Positions 1 through 11,858 of a stretch of DNA of 13,292 nt are shown here, in pieces. Under the pieces are notes generated by a model. That model was not told where the DNA came from, made no database searches, and saw nothing but the letters and a program-made list of their open reading frames with translations. The stretch comes from Rhodocyclaceae bacterium. Lineage in GTDB: Bacteria; Pseudomonadota; Gammaproteobacteria; Burkholderiales; Rhodocyclaceae. The stretch's first letter is position 1; each line of letters starts with the position of its first letter. The stretch is taken from NCBI GenBank assembly GCA_030689585.1, contig JAUYFZ010000209.1, forward strand, positions 1-13,292. The letters are read 5' to 3'. The translations under genes were made by a program, and so were the position numbers.

Positions 1-974
1 CTGGTTACAACTACATTCACGGCGAAATTTTCGAACTCTACGAGCGTTTTGAAGCCGCCTTGGCTGAAGCTCGTGCCGCCGGTTATTTAGGCAAAAACAT
101 ACTGGGTTCCGGCGTGGAATTCGATTGCTTCGCTCATCAAGGGTTTGGGGCTTATGTCTGCGGTGAAGAGTCTGCCCTGATCGAATCCATCGAAGGCAAA
201 AAAGGCCAACCGCGCATGAAACCGCCGTTCCCTGCTCAGGTAGGGTTATATGGAAAACCCACGTTGGTCAACAACACGGAAAGTTACGCCTCAGTTCCCG
301 CACTCTTCCGCATTGGCGGAGAAGCCTATCTCAATCTGGGCAAGCCCAACAATGGGGGAACCAAGTTGTTTTCCATTTCCGGTCACGTGATGAAACCGGG
401 TAATTACGAAGTCCCGCTTGGCACACCCTTTGCCAAACTGCTAGAAATGGCAGGCGGCATACGAGGGGGACGCAAATTAAAGGCGGTCATCCCGGGGGGG
501 TCTTCCTCTCCTGTCTTAACAGCAGAGATCATCATGGATTGCACCATGGATTACGACTGCATCGCCAAAGCCGGTTCCATGTTCGGTTCCGGAGCGATTA
601 TCGTCATGGATGAAACCGTGTGCATGGTCAAAGCACTGGAACGACTTTCCCATTTTTACTGGGACGAATCCTGTGGTCAATGCACCCCCTGCCGCGAAGG
701 CACGGGCTGGTTGGCGAAGATTCTTCACCGCATTGAACAGGGTCATGGTCGTCATGAAGACCTTGATTTACTCACTTCTATCACCGGCAACATCATGGGA
801 CGCACCGTATGTCCGTTGGGCGATGCCGCTTCAATGCCGGTCAATGGCTTCCTGAAGCACTTCCGACCGGAGTTTGAATATCACATCGAATATAAAAAAT
901 GCTTAGTGCCACCCGACGTGCAAAAATCGGGAAGCACGTTCCATACTCGAATGATGGCGGGCGCATCATGTTAA
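1..974 (+). CDS. nuoF: NADH-quinone oxidoreductase subunit F (NuoF), 5'-truncated by window edge
   Basis: NuoF is the 51-kDa-type subunit of complex I. It binds NADH and FMN in the peripheral arm and passes electrons to [4Fe-4S] cluster N3. The reading frame is open from base 3 (323 residues visible). Family members have about 430 residues, so roughly the first 110 are outside the window. Visible family signatures are the FMN/NADH-fold segment with [20 protein letters not shown] (bases about 147-206), the N3 motif [11 protein letters not shown] (about 669-701) and the fourth ligand in TVCPLGDAA. The C-terminus carries a short polar tail ending GASC. It overlaps nuoG by 7 bases (ATGTTAA). A G7 run at 494-500 is in frame. 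The ATG/TTG codons inside the visible part are not starts, because the conserved fold begins further upstream. Confidence 0.97.
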
Positions 975-3019
975 ATATTGAAATTGACGGCAAGCCCATT
1001 CAAGTTGAGCCAGGCACAACCATTATTCAAGCGGCCAAAAAATTAGGGGTGCACATTCCGCATTTCTGCTATCACAAGAAATTATCCATTGCCGCTTCCT
1101 GCCGCATGTGTTTAGTCGAAGTAGAACAAGGCGGTAAACCTTTCCCAAAACCGTTGCCGGCCTGCGCAACCACCACGGCAGAAGGCATGAAGGTTTTCAC
1201 GCATTCCGACCTTGCGATTAAAGCCCAGCAAGGCGTGATGGAATTTCTGCTCATCAATCATCCGCTGGATTGCCCCATCTGCGACCAAGCCGGAGAATGC
1301 AAACTTCAAGACATTGCCATGGGGTATGGCAACACGGTTTCCCGCTTCCATGAAGAAAAACGGGTCGTGGAATCCAAAGAATTAGGGCCTCTCATTGCCT
1401 CCGATGCCTCACGTTGCATCAACTGCACTCGCTGTGTGCGATTTTTACAAGAAATTTCCGGTTTCCAAGAAATGGGGCAAGCTTTCCGTGGCGATCGAGC
1501 AGAGATCATGCCGTTCATCGGACAAGCGATTACCTCTGAATTGTCCGGTAATCTCATTGATATTTGCCCCGTCGGCTCGCTCACCTCGAAACCGGCTCGC
1601 AATACAGTCCGTAGCTGGGAGTTAGCACGCCGACTCTCTGTGGCTCCCCATGACGGGTTAGGCAGTCGCCTCTACATTCACGTCAAAAATAACCGTGTCT
1701 ATCGAGTCACACCACGTCATACAGAAGCCATTAACAGTTGCTGGATATCTGATAAAGACCGCTTCTCCTATACCGGGCTGTATGCCGCAGATCGGCTGAC
1801 AAAACCGATGTTGAAACAAGGGGGTGTTTGGCAGGAAGTGAGTTGGAATCAAGCACTCGACTACGCCGCCCATACCTTGCGCGATATTGCCCAACAAGAT
1901 GCGTCCGCTCTAGGCGCACTCATCAGCCCCACTGCCACGCTGGAAGAAATGAGTTTGGCGGGACAACTCATGCGCGGTTTGGGTTCAGAAAACATCGATC
2001 ACCGTTTGCGCCAGCGGGATTTTTCACCTTCATCCGCCCCTTGGTTAGGCATGAAAATCACCGATCTACCCACATTGGATCGCGTGTTGCTTGTTGGTTC
2101 AAACCTGCGAAGCGAACATCCCTTGATTGCCCTGCGTCTGCGTCAAGCCGTCAATCGGGGGGGAGAAGTTCATCTCATCGACAACGATCTTCTCATCCGC
2201 TTGGCCGCCATCGTCAAAGCCGTTGCCACTCTCAAAAACGCCCCCTGCGAATTAAAGTGCATCGTTTCGGAAGAAGCAAAGCGCGTTGCGGACAATCTTG
2301 TCATCGGACAAAACATCGCCGTATTGCTCGGCAATGTTGCACAGCACCACCCGAAGGCCGCCACCTTGCACACGCTGGCACAACAACTCGCCTCTTTGTT
2401 AAATGCAAAAGTCGGTTGTCTGTCCGAATCCGCCAACACGGTCGGAGGCTATGTCGCCCGCGCCCTGCCCAGCAAGAATGGATTGAACGCAGATCGCATG
2501 TTGCGTGAACCCCGTCAGGCGTATTTATTACTAGGATGCGAACCAGAGCAAGACTGCGCCGAGGGTGCGTTGGCGTTGAGCGCGATGAAACAAGCGCAAA
2601 GTGTCATCGTGCTTTCTCCTTTTGCTTCCGCAGCCACATATGCGGATTGCCTCTTACCCATCGCGCCTTTCACGGAAACTTCCGGAACCTTCATCAACAT
2701 GGAAGGTCGAGTACAAAGCTTTGCCGCTGCGGTTCGCCCCTTGGGTGAAGCCCGTCCGGGTTGGAAAGTGCTGGCTGCATTAGGCAAACTGCTTGATTTG
2801 CCTGATTTCGATGTTGAGAGCAGTGAAGAGGTCAAGAACAACTTGCTACCCAACACACCAGAATTCGTGACTCTCGAAGATTCTCTTTCTGACCTCCCCG
2901 TTGATCTGACTTCAGATTTATTAGCAGATGCTCTCGTGCCGGTTGCGCCTTATGCCACGGACGCGCTGGTGCGCCGTGCCACTTGCCTCCAACAACCCAG
3001 AAACGGAGGGAATGCCTGA
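968..3019 (+). CDS. nuoG: NADH-quinone oxidoreductase subunit G (NuoG)
   Basis: NuoG is the 75-kDa-type Fe-S subunit of the complex I peripheral arm (683 residues). It relays electrons from NuoF towards NuoI. The N-terminal ferredoxin-like domain has C34, C45, C48 and C66 for the [2Fe-2S] cluster N1b. The next segment has H98, C102, C105 and C111 for the His-ligated cluster N5, then C150, C153, C156 and C200 for N4. The rest is a molybdopterin-oxidoreductase-like domain with no catalytic cofactor signature that I can see. The extra Cys motif for cluster N7, known from E. coli, is absent after residue 210, as in mitochondria and many proteobacteria. I chose ATG 968 ([10 protein letters not shown]) because the frame upstream lies inside nuoF and the ferredoxin domain begins here. 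It overlaps nuoF by 7 bases and shares the A of its TGA with the nuoH start. Confidence 0.97.
3005..3010 (+). promoter_or_regulatory. Ribosome binding site of nuoH
   Basis: GGAGGG lies 8 bases before ATG 3019. It supports that start over an in-frame upstream ATG at 2983 and lies inside the last codons of nuoG. Confidence 0.75.
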
Positions 3020-4098
3020 TGGAAGCCATTCTGCTCAACTTCTTCCAATGGATGTGGGGCCCTTATTGGGAACCCATCTGGGCTTACATCGCCCCCATTT
3101 GGCCGGCGGTATGGACACTCCTTAAAATTGTCGCCATCATCGCGCCGCTGATGCTGTGTGTCGCCTACCTCACCTTCTGGGAACGCAAGATCATTGGCTG
3201 GATGCAGGTGCGCATCGGCCCAAACCGCGTCGGGCCTTGGGGTCTTCTGCAACCCATCGCCGACGGAATGAAACTCTTCTTCAAGGAAGTGGTCATCCCC
3301 TCGCAAGCGGATAAACAACTTTTCATCCTCGCGCCAATACTGTCCATCGCGCCAGCACTGGCCGCCTGGGCAGTCATTCCATTCTTTGAAGGCGGCGTGC
3401 TGGCCAATATTGATGCCGGCGTGTTGTATCTACTGGCGGTCTCATCGATGGGGGTCTACGGCATCATCATCGCCGGATGGGCTTCCAACTCAAAATATCC
3501 CCTATTGGGGGCCATGCGTTCTGCCGCGCAAATGGTGTCTTATGAAGTGGCGATGGGATTGGCACTGGTAACGGTGTTGATGGTATCGGGGAGTCTTAAT
3601 CTCACCGAAATTGTGCTGGCACAAAACAAAAATCATGTTCCCGTGATGAATTTCCTTACTTGGAACTGGTTGCCCCTCTTTCCTTTATTTCTTGTCTATC
3701 TCATCTCCGGTGTGGCGGAATTGAACCGCGCTCCTTTCGATGTCGTCGAAGGCGAATCCGAAATCGTCGCGGGACACATGGTCGAATACTCCGGCATGGC
3801 GTTTGCCATGTTTTTCCTCGCTGAATACGCGAACATGATTCTCGTAGCGGCGATGACCGCCCTGTTCTTCTTCGGCGGATGGCTCTCACCTGTGAGTTTC
3901 CTGCCCGATAGCGCGCTCTGGCTATTTGCCAAAATGGCCGCCGTATTGTTCTTCTTCCTGTGGATTCGCGCCACTTTCCCACGCTATCGCTATGACCAGA
4001 TCATGCGCTTGGGCTGGAAAGTGTTCGTACCCATCACACTCCTCTGGATCCCCGTGGTGGGCATCTGGATGATGTCACCGTGGAGTCTCTGGACATGA
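3019..4098 (+). CDS. nuoH: NADH-quinone oxidoreductase subunit H (NuoH)
   Basis: NuoH is the ND1-type membrane subunit (359 residues) that joins the peripheral arm to the membrane arm and forms much of the quinone chamber. Visible signatures are the first-loop block [20 protein letters not shown] (residues about 53-72) with [15 protein letters not shown] just after it. The long acidic loop [20 protein letters not shown] (about 233-252) is also present; its glutamates are thought to carry protons from the quinone site. About eight hydrophobic membrane segments can be seen. The start at ATG 3019 overlaps the nuoG stop as TGATG and has a good GGAGGG site; the upstream ATG at 2983 would add a polar, non-conserved leader. 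It ends overlapping nuoI by 4 bases. Confidence 0.97.
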
Positions 4099-4580
4099 AT
4101 ATTAAAAACCTCATCCAGAGTTTCTCTCTTGGCGAACTGCGTCAAGGCTTGGCGGTCACGTTGCGTTACATGTTTGCGCCAAAGATCACCGTTCAGTATC
4201 CCGATGAAAAAACACCCCTGTCGCCGCGTTTCCGTGGATTACATGCGTTACGCCGCTATTCAGATGGGGATGAACGTTGTATCGGCTGCAAGCTATGCGA
4301 AGCCGTTTGTCCCGCCAAAGCCATCACCATTGATCTGGGAACCAATGAAGAAGGGGTTCGTTGCACCACGCGCTACGACATCGACCTAACCCTGTGCATC
4401 TTCTGCGGCTTCTGTGAGGAAGCCTGCCCGGTGGATGCCATCGTCGAAACACATGTCTTCGAATATTACGGTGAAAAGAAATCTGATCTTCTTTACACCA
4501 AGAAAATGCTGCTGGCCAATGGCAACCGCCATGAAGCAGAAATCGCCAAAAACCGCGAACTAGACGCAAAATATCGATGA
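4095..4580 (+). CDS. nuoI: NADH-quinone oxidoreductase subunit I (NuoI)
   Basis: NuoI is the TYKY-type 8Fe ferredoxin subunit (161 residues). It carries clusters N6a and N6b, which hand electrons on towards N2. The two motifs are [12 protein letters not shown] (C62, C65, C68, C72) and [12 protein letters not shown] (C101, C104, C107, C111). The middle block [16 protein letters not shown] is typical. ATG 4095 overlaps the nuoH stop as ATGA, with GGAG 9 bases upstream. The protein is full length, but its last 14 residues ([14 protein letters not shown]) are encoded again at 4985-5026. The stop codon used here lies within ATGA at 4577-4580, which is also the start of an inserted PIN-toxin fragment. 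The presumed original ending is CGC TGA in the second copy; here it is CGA TGA, a silent change. Confidence 0.97.
4536..4580 (+). repeat. Direct repeat, copy 1 (3' end of nuoI)
   Basis: This 45-base segment matches 4985-5029 with one mismatch (A4577 against C5026). The first 41 bases (4536-4576, ending in CGCAAAATATCG) are identical. Copy 1 encodes the NuoI C-terminal tail in its normal place. Confidence 0.97.
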
Positions 4581-4671
4581 AAAAACCTTCTGTTTACATC
4601 GAAACCACTATCCCAAGCTACCTAACGGACATGGCGAATCGCCACCCCGCATCATGAAACATGCCCCATTG

Positions 4672-4789
4672 ACCCCCATCCCCTCCCCAACCCTCCCCTT
4701 CAAGGGGAGGGAGAGATGCTCCTCCCCCTTCAAGGGGAGGGAGAGATGCTCCTCCCCCTTCAAGGGGGAGGCGGGGAGGGGGAGGGGGA
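4672..4789 (+). repeat. Cluster of GC-rich palindromic repeats with three 30-base tandem units
   Basis: Three units of 30 bases follow each other (4691-4720, 4721-4750, 4751-4780). Each contains the hairpin CCTCCCC-TTCAA-GGGGAGG, and the first two end in GAGAGATGCT. The outer flanks, C-rich on the left (4674-4700) and G-rich on the right (4762-4788), are also roughly complementary to each other, so the whole stretch can fold as one long hairpin or three small ones. The right flank has four or more G runs and could form a G-quadruplex. The same palindrome occurs at 11729-11825 and 13264-13292. The element has no coding role; the proline-rich frames through it are artefacts of composition. Confidence 0.85.
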
Positions 4790-4814
4790 CTGTATTTCAC
4801 GCTAAGGAACTAAT

Positions 4815-4820
4815 GGAGGG
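4815..4820 (+). promoter_or_regulatory. Ribosome binding site of the antitoxin-like gene
   Basis: GGAGGG lies 8 bases before ATG 4829 and fixes that start. It sits within the surviving 3' end of the toxin gene. Confidence 0.7.
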
Positions 4821-4828
4821 ATCAGAGC

Positions 4829-5029
4829 ATGTGGCATGATTCTATTGTTGAAGAAGTTCGCCACGTCAGAGCGACCTATGCAAATCGCTTTGATAACAAT
4901 ATTCATGCTATTTGTGAAGATATTCGTAAAAGACAATCTGCATCGTCCCATACAGTCGTTTCGCTCCAAGCGCAAACGCCGACCGCAGAAATCGCCAAAA
5001 ACCGCGAACTAGACGCAAAATATCGCTGA
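4829..5029 (+). CDS. Antitoxin-like small protein, fused in frame to a duplicated NuoI tail
   Basis: This 66-residue protein begins MWHDSIVEEVRHVRATYANR. That start resembles the small proteins (MW-D-IVEEV-R pattern, then a HAI--D-RK helix) encoded directly after PIN-domain toxins of the ETTIPSYLT type, so it is probably the antitoxin of the broken pair. Residues 1 to about 52 look native. The last 14 ([14 protein letters not shown]) are the NuoI C-terminal tail, contributed by the 41-base duplication and lying in the same frame. A good GGAGGG site precedes the ATG, so translation is plausible. It lies inside the nuo operon and would be transcribed with it. Its stop (5027-5029) touches the nuoJ ribosome binding site, so it may couple translation into nuoJ as nuoI once did. 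With its toxin dead it has no local partner. Function is inferred, not certain. Confidence 0.6.
   Translation: MWHDSIVEEVRHVRATYANRFDNNIHAICEDIRKRQSASSHTVVSLQAQTPTAEIAKNRELDAKYR
4985..5029 (+). repeat. Direct repeat, copy 2 (duplicated 3' end of nuoI)
   Basis: Second copy of the nuoI end. It runs straight into GGATG and the start of nuoJ, so it probably keeps the ancestral nuoI-nuoJ junction (CGC TGA followed by the nuoJ ribosome binding site). Copy 1 would then be joined to the inserted DNA. Confidence 0.9.
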
Positions 5030-5032
5030 GGA
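5028..5032 (+). promoter_or_regulatory. Ribosome binding site of nuoJ
   Basis: GAGGA overlaps the stop of the preceding frame and lies 11 bases before ATG 5044. It argues for ATG 5044 rather than ATG 5032, which overlaps the site itself. The spacing is somewhat long. Confidence 0.5.
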
Positions 5033-5043
5033 TGTCACCGACA

Positions 5044-5676
5044 ATGGAACTCAAAACAATCCTCTTTTATCTCTTTTCAGCCATTCTGCTGTTCGCGGCC
5101 TTGCGCGTCATCACCGCAAGAAACCCTGTTCATGCCGTCCTGTATCTGGTGTTCACTTTTTTCAATACGGCTGCCTTATGGCTGCTTCTGGGCGCGGAAT
5201 TCCTAGCTATCGCCCTCATCATGGTCTATGTCGGGGCTGTCATGGTACTGTTCCTGTTCGTCGTCATGATGCTCGACATCAATATCGACCGGTTACGTCA
5301 AGGGTTTTGGAGCTATCTGCCTTTTGGTGCAACAATCGGGCTATTGATGGTGGCAGAAATGGCTTTGGTACTCTCTAGCGAATACTTCAGCACGGCCTCT
5401 TTCCCTGATCATCCGATTTCAGCCTCCGTCAGTAATACCAAGGAACTTGGAAGATTGATCTTCACCGACTACGTCTATCCCTTTGAATTGGCCTCCGTCA
5501 TTCTTCTAGTGGCTATTATTGCGGCAGTGATGCTGACTTTGCGCCATCGCACAGATACCAAACACCTCGACCCCTCAAAACAAATTGCAGTCAAGGCCAG
5601 CGATCGCCTACGCATCGTACAAATGTCGGTGGAAAAACCAGTGACAGACTGTGCCCCGAAGGAGGTTTTGACATGA
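5044..5676 (+). CDS. nuoJ: NADH-quinone oxidoreductase subunit J (NuoJ)
   Basis: NuoJ is the ND6-type membrane subunit (210 residues) at the heel of the membrane arm, next to NuoK and NuoH. Five hydrophobic segments are visible. The third contains the conserved block [20 protein letters not shown], whose pi-bulge helix is linked in other complex I structures to coupling of quinone reduction and proton movement. A polar C-terminal tail of about 40 residues follows. ATG 5044 ([13 protein letters not shown]) matches family starts better than ATG 5032, which would add MSPT. The gene has been separated from nuoI by the inserted block but keeps its own upstream context. It overlaps nuoK by 4 bases (ATGA). 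Confidence 0.96.
5659..5665 (+). promoter_or_regulatory. Ribosome binding site of nuoK
   Basis: AAGGAGG lies 7 bases before ATG 5673. It is the best Shine-Dalgarno match in the operon and lies inside the end of nuoJ. Confidence 0.8.
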
Positions 5677-5978
5677 TCTCTCTTTCTCACACACTCATTC
5701 TGGCTGCCCTACTCTTTACCATTGGCGTGGTCGGCATCTTCCTCAACCGTAAAAACCTCATCGTTCTGCTGATGTCCATCGAGCTGATGCTGCTCGCCGT
5801 CAACATCAACTTCGTCGCCTTCTCGCACTTCCTAAATGATCTTGCCGGACAGGTATTTGTGTTATTCACTTTAACCGTCGCAGCCGCCGAAGCCGGTATT
5901 GGTTTAGCCATTCTGGTCGTCATGTTCCGCAACCTCTCATCCATTCATGTGGATGATCTTGACACTTTGAAGGGTTGA
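5673..5978 (+). CDS. nuoK: NADH-quinone oxidoreductase subunit K (NuoK)
   Basis: NuoK is the ND4L-type membrane subunit (101 residues, the usual length) with three membrane helices. It carries the two buried glutamates of the proton path: E37 in [14 protein letters not shown] and E73 in [11 protein letters not shown], matching E36 and E72 of the E. coli protein. The ATG overlaps the nuoJ stop (ATGA) and follows a near-perfect Shine-Dalgarno site. nuoL starts 8 bases after its stop. Confidence 0.97.
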
Positions 5979-5986
5979 TTGCCAAT

Positions 5987-8008
5987 ATGAAAGCCCTCTA
6001 CCTCATCATTCCCTTCGCTCCCCTTGTTGGCGCAATCATCGCTGGATTCTGCGCACGCATGATCGGTCGTGTCGGGGCACACTCCGTCACCATCCTCGGT
6101 GTCACGGTATCTCTGATCTGCTCCCTCCTCGTTTTTCAGGATGTCATGGCGGGAAACACATTCAACGGCGCGCTCTACACCTGGCTTGAATCGGGTGGGC
6201 TGAAAATGGAAATCGGCTTTTTGATTGATCCTCTCACCGCCGTAATGATGATCGTTGTCACCTTTGTTTCGCTCATGGTGCATATCTACACCATCGGTTA
6301 TATGGCGCACGATGAAGATAACTGGCCGGAAAACAGCCTGGCCGGAAAATACAGTTATCAACGTTTCTTCTCCTACATCTCGCTTTTCACCTTCTCGATG
6401 TTGATGCTGGTGATGAGCAATAATTTCGTGCAACTCTTTTTTGGCTGGGAAGCCGTCGGGCTGGTTTCCTATCTCTTGATCGGATTCTGGGCCACGCGCC
6501 CCACTGCTATCTATGCCAACCTCAAGGCATTTTTAGTCAACCGCGTAGGCGATTTCGGCTTCCTTCTAGGCATTGGACTGATCGCCACCTACGCAGGCAG
6601 CTTGGACTACGCAGTCGTTTTCGGCAAGGCCAAGGAATTAGCGACGGTCATAGAACCCGTCACCGGCTGGCCCCTCATCACCGCAGCCTGCATCGGACTA
6701 TTCATCGGTGCGATGGGTAAATCAGCCCAATTCCCGTTACATGTCTGGCTACCCGATTCAATGGAAGGCCCGACCCCCATCTCTGCCTTGATTCACGCCG
6801 CTACCATGGTTACAGCGGGTATCTTCATGGTCTCCCGCATGTCACCGCTGTTTGAATTGTCCGAAACCGCCCTGTCCTTCGTCATCGTCATCGGGGCCAT
6901 CACCACCCTCTTCATGGCCTTGATCGCCATTGTCCAGACAGACATCAAACGGGTCGTTGCTTACTCCACGCTCTCCCAGCTCGGCTACATGACCATGGCA
7001 CTGGGAGCTTCCGCTTATTCTGTCGCCATCTTCCACCTGATGACCCACGCCTTCTTCAAAGCCGTACTTTTCTTGGGAGCCGGTTCAGTCATCATCGCCA
7101 TGCACCACGAACAGGACATGCGGCGCATGGGCGGGTTGCGTAAATACATGCCGATTACCTATCTCACCGTATTGATCGGCGCGATAGCCAACGCGGGACT
7201 CCCGCCCTTCGCCGGATTCTTCTCGAAAGATTCCATCATCGAAGCCGTGCATCTGGCCAATATTCCCGGAGCCAGCTTCGCCTATGTTTGCGCACTCGCT
7301 GCGGTGTTCATCGGTGGTTTATATTCCTTCCGCCTCGTGTTCTTTGCCTTCCACGGAGAAGAACGATTCCGCCATGCGGGGGGGGGGCTAGGGCATTGCG
7401 AAGATCATGGTCAACACGCCCCATCGCACGACTCACATGAACCTCACGAATCTCCAGCGGTCGTCACCCTGCCGCTCATTCTGCTGGCCATTCCCGCCGT
7501 TGTTTCAGGCTGGTTCATCGGTCCCATGCTCTTCGGGGGCTGGTTCGGCGATGCCATCGTCATCGCACCGGAACACACCGCCTTGGCTCAGATGAAAGAA
7601 AGTTTCCACGGTGTCATTGCCATGATGGCGCACGGCGTGACCACGCTCCCCTTCTGGCTTGCCATCAGTGGTGCTGCCACTGCTTGGTTCCTCTACATAA
7701 AACGTCCTGATCTACCCGCCGTCATCCGTCAGAAACTCGCCTTCCCCGTCATGATTCTTGAAAACAAATACGGCTTCGATGCCTTCAACGACTGGTTCTT
7801 TGCTGGTGGCGCACGAAGATTAGGTTATGGTCTATGGCGAGGTGGCGATCAAATAATGATCGATGGGGCTGTCAATGGATCAGCGCGCATGATCGGTTGG
7901 TTGGCTTCTGTGGTTCGCTTGTTCCAAAGTGGTCATCTCTACCAATATGCTTTCTCCATGATTATCGGTGTCTTCGTTCTACTGACACTCTGGCTCGGAA
8001 TCGCATGA
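5987..8008 (+). CDS. nuoL: NADH-quinone oxidoreductase subunit L (NuoL)
   Basis: NuoL is the distal antiporter-like (ND5-type) proton-pumping subunit of the membrane arm (673 residues). Key residues by motif: E155 in FFGWEAVGLV, K245 in GAMGKSAQFPLHVWLPD, the block HLMTHAFFKAVLFLGAG with K358, and K414 in GFFSKDSII. These correspond to E144, K229, a central-axis lysine and K399 of E. coli. The C-terminal part should form the long lateral helix and its anchor. ATG 5987 (MKALYLIIPF) is chosen; a TTG at 5975 in frame overlaps nuoK and adds only MIAN. A possible GAAGGG site lies about 12 bases upstream. A run of ten G (7378-7387) encodes A464-GGG in the variable loop before a histidine-rich stretch. 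nuoM overlaps its end. Confidence 0.97.
   Translation: MKALYLIIPFAPLVGAIIAGFCARMIGRVGAHSVTILGVTVSLICSLLVFQDVMAGNTFNGALYTWLESGGLKMEIGFLIDPLTAVMMIVVTFVSLMVHIYTIGYMAHDEDNWPENSLAGKYSYQRFFSYISLFTFSMLMLVMSNNFVQLFFGWEAVGLVSYLLIGFWATRPTAIYANLKAFLVNRVGDFGFLLGIGLIATYAGSLDYAVVFGKAKELATVIEPVTGWPLITAACIGLFIGAMGKSAQFPLHVWLPDSMEGPTPISALIHAATMVTAGIFMVSRMSPLFELSETALSFVIVIGAITTLFMALIAIVQTDIKRVVAYSTLSQLGYMTMALGASAYSVAIFHLMTHAFFKAVLFLGAGSVIIAMHHEQDMRRMGGLRKYMPITYLTVLIGAIANAGLPPFAGFFSKDSIIEAVHLANIPGASFAYVCALAAVFIGGLYSFRLVFFAFHGEERFRHAGGGLGHCEDHGQHAPSHDSHEPHESPAVVTLPLILLAIPAVVSGWFIGPMLFGGWFGDAIVIAPEHTALAQMKESFHGVIAMMAHGVTTLPFWLAISGAATAWFLYIKRPDLPAVIRQKLAFPVMILENKYGFDAFNDWFFAGGARRLGYGLWRGGDQIMIDGAVNGSARMIGWLASVVRLFQSGHLYQYAFSMIIGVFVLLTLWLGIA
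7378..7387 (+). repeat. G10 homopolymer tract within nuoL
   Basis: Ten G in a row cover the last base of codon 464 through codon 467. In the sequence given the frame is open. Loss of one G would give TAG directly after the run, and gain of one G would lead to a stop about 50 bases later. Confidence 0.95.
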
Positions 8009-11704: not shown

Positions 11705-11858
11705 GTAACTACTCAGGTCGGTGTCAATCTCCCTCCCCTTCAAGGGGAGGGCTGGGGTGGGGATGGGGTTTTACGCGGAATTCCCCCCCCCATCCCCCTC
11801 CCCGCCTCCCCCTTGAAGGGGGAGGAGAGCTGTGTTGCGACCGGACCTGAGTAGTTAC
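11705..11858. mobile_element. 154-base MITE with IS66-type ends
   Basis: The ends are perfect 15-base inverted repeats: GTAACTACTCAGGTC (11705-11719) and GACCTGAGTAGTTAC (11844-11858). They are flanked by a perfect 8-base direct repeat GAATAATG. IS66-family elements have ends starting GTAA and make 8-base target duplications, so this is probably a non-autonomous derivative. There is no transposase inside. The interior is a nested inverted repeat: palindrome CCCTCCCC-TTCAA-GGGGAGGG with a run of GGGG blocks, a short AT-richer loop (about 11768-11782), then a C9 run and the complementary arm ending CCTCCCC-CTTGAAG-type palindrome at 11805-11825. The G blocks at 11745-11767 could form a quadruplex. 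The structure may also end transcription after uma2. Confidence 0.85.
11729..11825 (+). repeat. Paired GC-rich palindromes inside the MITE
   Basis: The left unit at 11729-11751 and an inverted unit at 11805-11825 share the CCTCCCC/GGGGAGG hairpin seen at 4691-4780 and 13264-13286. Together they form the arms of a long hairpin. Confidence 0.85.

Follow-up and report, generated by a model that had tools for sequence, protein, structure and literature searches.

A toxin-antitoxin relic between nuoI and nuoJ is enclosed by an exact 41-base duplication of the nuoI 3' end

The remains of a PIN-type toxin-antitoxin pair were found between nuoI and nuoJ in the 13.3-kb stretch of DNA analysed here (the window, taken at its full length), with the end of nuoI present on both sides of them. 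The case is an insertion inside the nuo operon in which both neighbouring genes are intact and the toxin gene was probably broken afterwards. Our best explanation, held with about even confidence, is that the pair was inserted by a duplicative, copying-type repair at the nuoI-nuoJ junction and was kept since both neighbours survive. The features of the junction, all on the plus strand, are as follows.

4095 to 4580, plus strand: nuoI, complete, 161 aa; its TGA stop and the ATG of the toxin overlap (ATGA).
4536 to 4576, plus strand: copy 1 of the 41-base repeat, the nuoI end, from the repeat comparison.
4577 to 4625, plus strand: start of a PIN-type toxin frame, 17 residues, ATG at 4577; the final few bases fit dispersed repeat A too.
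4622 to 4805, plus strand: dispersed repeat A, 184 bp, which replaces most of the toxin, with YTAA at each end.
4807 to 4839, plus strand: final codons of the toxin, ELMEGSEHVA and stop (compare the toxin end at locus L067).
4829 to 5029, plus strand: antitoxin open reading frame, ATG at 4829; 52 residues up to 4984, then 14 NuoI-tail residues in frame.
4985 to 5025, plus strand: copy 2 of the 41-base repeat, from the repeat comparison, then TGA and the nuoJ leader.
5044 to 5676, plus strand: nuoJ, with an alternative start possible at 5032.

A repeat comparison of the window showed identity at 41/41 bases between 4536-4576 and 4985-5025. This pair was the longest repeat within the 13.3 kb, where about 3e-17 matches of that length would be expected by chance. 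Extended by the next letters (4536-4580 and 4985-5029), the copies matched at 44 of 45 positions, differing by A against C in the final Arg codon before the TGA, in agreement with the initial annotation of this DNA. Positions 4500-4640 were used to query the own genome, G000 (1.7 Mb in 314 contigs; completeness 79%), and yielded 32 matches, namely the two nuoI-tail copies and 30 matches of 21 bases or fewer; no third place for the nuoI tail was found in this assembly. The remaining repeats in the window were pieces of CCTCCCC-type dispersed repeats of at most 24 bases.

The insert proper spans 4577-4984 (408 bases). The NuoI protein is intact at 161 aa despite the insert, and the second tail copy keeps the nuoJ leader intact, both as had been claimed. 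It had also been proposed that the insert supplies the ATGA that completes the nuoI stop. NuoI is indeed whole, but a foreign origin of these letters is not required, since nuoI of the same-genus genome G001 also ends CGATGA, with nuoJ overlapping the nuoI end. For the same reason, CGA may be the older state of the last nuoI Arg codon.

The nuoI-nuoJ junction was compared in 29 relatives (loci L010-L038) from 40 searched, a check that the initial annotation had proposed. The gap measured 2-146 bases in the relatives and 466 bases here, which places the insertion of the pair in this lineage. No insert lies between nuoI and nuoJ in G001, the one genome of the same genus that was seen. When the 29 nuoI loci served as controls, none had flanking repeats at E <= 1e-9 and four had weaker ones (E 4e-4 to 5e-3), with the control and survey sets being small and unmatched. 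The duplication is a recent event, since the two copies in the window agree at 41/41 bases while NuoI proteins that are 97% and 94% identical (P0016 and P0017) differ from the window within the tail, as compared at the protein level.

The DNA between the nuoI-tail copies is a PIN-type toxin-antitoxin relic in its native order, toxin first, a PIN-toxin relic having been noticed from the letters alone. Its start and end resemble those of PIN-type toxins: the toxin start matches that of the L067 toxin, which itself matches the Pfam PIN model, and the toxin end reads ELMEG here and ELMEE (..TPMELMEE) in L067, compared by eye. The toxin is not intact, about 130 of its codons being missing. The antitoxin ATG at 4829 overlaps the toxin 3' end. 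Twelve database relatives of the antitoxin (50-58% identity) differ among themselves in their C-terminal ends; here the end consists of the last 14 NuoI residues, read in frame, and the fused 66-residue antitoxin/NuoI-tail frame had a database match to the window itself only. The antitoxin had no match among the models of Pfam, PADLOC and NCBIfam, and NCBIfam likewise gave no match for the toxin relative or for the ATPase of contig 6 described below. The antitoxin had one weak match among plasmids, and a search limited to close relatives found none in viral contigs. Of 23 loci with antitoxin relatives, 18 had a toxin motif, and in 17 an unbroken toxin frame ended directly before the antitoxin; toxin first is therefore the native order, which the insert follows. 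A circular permutation, in which the order of antitoxin and toxin would be swapped and a circle implied, was dropped because the relatives have the toxin first.

Most of the toxin has been replaced by dispersed repeat A. Positions 4400-5150 gave at least 106 matches in G000, the window itself included, with 40 of 305 candidates scored, and nearly all fell within repeat A. The same YTAA letters, with the same Y, stood at both ends in all 11 repeat A copies with both ends aligned, that of the window among them. Such ends are to be expected of a short inserted element. The toxin start forms the left flank of repeat A and the toxin end its right flank, which means that a deletion accompanied or followed the insertion of the repeat; that the toxin was broken after the pair had been inserted would be the simplest reading. 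The initial annotation had put the cargo at about 400 bases. This figure is a lower bound only, as repeat A replaced most of the toxin. Repeat A as the cause of the 41-base duplication was rejected, since it sits within the toxin and has nothing but YTAA in common between its two ends.

The same repeat raises the question of an assembly error, as several of the 314 contigs of G000 end inside repeat A. We consider such an error very improbable. The repeat A copy in the window has variants of its own and shares at most 71 bases of exact match with 80 other G000 contigs, which makes a misjoin less likely; on either side of it lie pieces that belong together, from a single toxin-antitoxin pair and from nuoI, and a similar case is present in the single-contig genome G011, described below.

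A second dispersed repeat, repeat B, is located at 11705-11858 of the window (154 bp), with terminal inverted repeats and the 8-base target duplication gaataatg. Twelve copies were present in the contigs read, and the 8-base duplication was exact in six of them; one lies inside the contig 6 insert. At 1499-1645 of L204, a 29-base direct repeat surrounds a shortened 81-bp repeat B copy that is without the usual 8-base duplication. More dispersed-repeat families with a CCTCCCC core and other ends were seen in L140 (29-63, 1079-1108 and 1317-1347) and in L215 (4130-4226).

A search for other duplicated gene ends, also suggested at the outset, proved productive and gave one of 50 bases in contig 6 (L102) of the same genome and one of 60 bases in L244 of G011. 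The own-genome survey covered 125 further G000 contigs, amounting with the window to 764,076 bases (45%); the sample is non-random, since 25 of the 125 were chosen from earlier matches. Across the window and the first 80 contigs, two unique direct repeats (at least 18 bases, 100-6000 apart) were detected, those at nuoI and in contig 6. Looser settings in 40 added contigs produced one more pair within these limits, the 29 bases around the short repeat B copy in L204. The looser-setting surveys listed 15 and 16 repeat pairs. Rejected as gene-end duplications were L142, L140 and L215 (dispersed repeats by inspection), L110, L124, L169 and L208 (which look tandem-like or low-complexity), and L114 and L115 (which look like coding similarity).

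The repeat in contig 6 is exact over 50 bases (3841-3890 and 5353-5402). Read on the minus strand, the first copy contains the end of a DUF4143/AAA ATPase gene, its stop and the first seven bases of the next gene; the insert carries repeat B and then a complete 399-codon DUF4143 ATPase gene; and the second copy leads into a glycosyltransferase-like gene (named by eye). The insert frame MNPPQVTK continues into the copied tail without a change of frame, and in both contig 6 and nuoI a frame from the insert terminates at the native stop of the host gene. The host gene and the inserted gene of contig 6 are paralogues, which counts against our best explanation. In G011, a genome of another genus of the same family, the 60-base repeat of L244 has one mismatch (2608-2667 and 3485-3544) and starts nine bases short of an ATPase gene's end, counting the stop. 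It encloses an addiction-module pair on the opposite strand, comprising a PF21716-matching antidote and a Gp49-like toxin just under the model cut-off; the ATPase, next to which this pair lies, is itself not enclosed.

Besides these two clear parallels to the nuoI case, there are a few possible ones. In L257 (G304; 196-736 and 1556-1680), portions of a DUF4351 gene's 3' end, together with its stop, are found again past a HigBA-like pair, and the second copy is internally deleted. L245 (G273; 12-3600) contains an ATPase piece, lgt, an ATPase, a diverged lgt tail, a VapBC-like pair and more lgt pieces, possibly the result of layered insertions or of tandem duplication around lgt. More diverged repeats or gene pieces surround the pairs in L236 and L262.

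The view that flanking repeats generally accompany these gene types was not supported, and most loci were without a gene-end repeat. A gene-end repeat accompanied one of the 13 own-genome DUF4143 matches (contig 6), and the other 12 had none or only fragments of tandem or dispersed repeats. For a 1.7-Mb assembly, 13 places with a whole or partial DUF4143 ATPase gene is a high number. Two of the 19 DUF4143 loci of the family (L236-L254) passed the repeat threshold (L236 and L244), with a weaker repeat in L245. Five of 24 PIN-antitoxin loci did so: the repeats of L066 and L077 look dispersed, those of L084 and L088 resemble integron attC sites by eye, and that of L071 is without explanation. No attC sites were recognised by eye at the nuoI insert. 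Among 18 HigB-type loci, hand-picked from genomes of one to five contigs, five passed E <= 1e-9, with repeats of a gene end (L257), a gene piece (L262), a tRNA end (L263) and dispersed type (L267 and L268).

The main rival explanation, which we regard as unlikely, takes the pair for a minimal satellite or an island remnant integrated at the nuoI 3' end, with the 41 bases as attachment core and a recombinase that acted in trans or was lost with the interior when repeat A entered. The duplication of a gene end with the target kept whole, as observed for nuoI, is a hallmark of such islands, and the cargo may once have been larger than the part now present. L263 has a conventional look, with 78-base copies containing a tRNA-Thr gene end on both sides of a HigBA-like pair, and may be an ordinary integrase element, although its suspected integrase end was recognised by eye only and had no Pfam match. 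At nuoI, no integrase or recombinase frame was present among ORFs of at least 50 aa in 4577-4984, as the initial annotation had stated, and no integrase frame was seen in any of the three clear inserts, whose ends moreover lie close to open reading frames. The suggestion of site-specific integration itself was not supported. The three clear cases have unrelated targets and repeats of different length (41, 50 and 60), so one shared site-specific recombinase appears unlikely; one nuoI insertion is known, and the repeat sequences of contig 6 and G011 are unrelated to the nuoI tail. Duplications left by a transposase would have a characteristic length. No terminal inverted repeats were found at the insert ends, and the inverted repeats in 4500-5100 lie only inside repeat A. 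The judgement that 41 bases is too long for a transposon target duplication agrees with the available text of PMC10132070, where the longest target duplications are the 16-28 bp of the IS1202 group.

A single crossover could also place the pair between two nuoI ends, if circular or concatemeric DNA already carrying the pair beside 41 bases of nuoI had been integrated by homologous recombination. Exactly such a layout would result, and the diverged gene pieces around the pairs in L236 and L262 may derive from related species. However, a donor with the pair already beside the nuoI end would be needed and none was found, and 41 bases is short for homologous recombination; we consider this route quite improbable.

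In the copying-type repair that we prefer, repair or replication would have left nuoI at its stop codon, passed along toxin-antitoxin DNA and come back into nuoI 41 bases upstream of the exit point, so that the nuoI end is present twice. A long staggered break filled in around captured DNA may be an alternative route, and no dedicated recombinase would be needed. NuoI stays whole through copy 1, and copy 2 preserves the stop and the leader ahead of nuoJ, which could make the insertion tolerable inside the nuo operon; a dispersed repeat would later have replaced most of the toxin and left the relic. Re-entry upstream of the exit could create duplications of any length, whereas gene ends would be deleted by re-entry downstream, and such events would not persist in essential operons; the cases that survive would therefore be those at gene 3' ends whose two neighbours are intact. 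No donor copy of the inserted genes was found, which counts against this explanation. Ku was detected in 2 of 21 genomes, neither G000 (79% complete) nor G001 among them; end-joining is therefore disfavoured as the route and was set aside.

The cases might even reflect a recurrent recombinase-free route that brings single addiction modules and DUF4143 ATPase genes into gene-dense operons, copied along with a duplicate, 40-60 bases or longer, of the neighbour's 3' end and with neither neighbour harmed, a generalization that we consider doubtful. There is no settled account of how toxin-antitoxin pairs pass from one chromosome to another when no mobile machinery is visible, and exactly duplicated ends of adjoining genes would serve as a footprint that is searchable in closed genomes, datable and testable. 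No description of gene-end duplication around such genes was found in the literature searched, which is weak evidence, as subscription papers were mostly outside its scope.

Compared with known systems, the insert is like PIN-domain toxin-antitoxin pairs in its toxin start, its toxin end and the order of the antitoxin, but it lacks about 130 toxin codons and has its antitoxin tail swapped for the NuoI tail. Template switching and illegitimate recombination give one-off foreign insertions with a local duplication of variable length, which is the likeness to the present case; the difference is that the cargo in the cases seen here consists of addiction-module or ATPase genes. The tDNA integrase islands, which duplicate and restore a gene 3' end according to the available text of PMC4383910, likewise hold foreign DNA between gene-end copies with the target whole, whereas here the target is a protein gene, no integrase frame is present, the insert measures 408 bases and the similar cases are without a common target. 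The IS1202-group elements, as described in the available text of PMC10132070, share a long direct duplication at the insertion site, but the duplications here are 41, 50 and 60 bases, compared to 16-28 bp there, and no transposase was seen.
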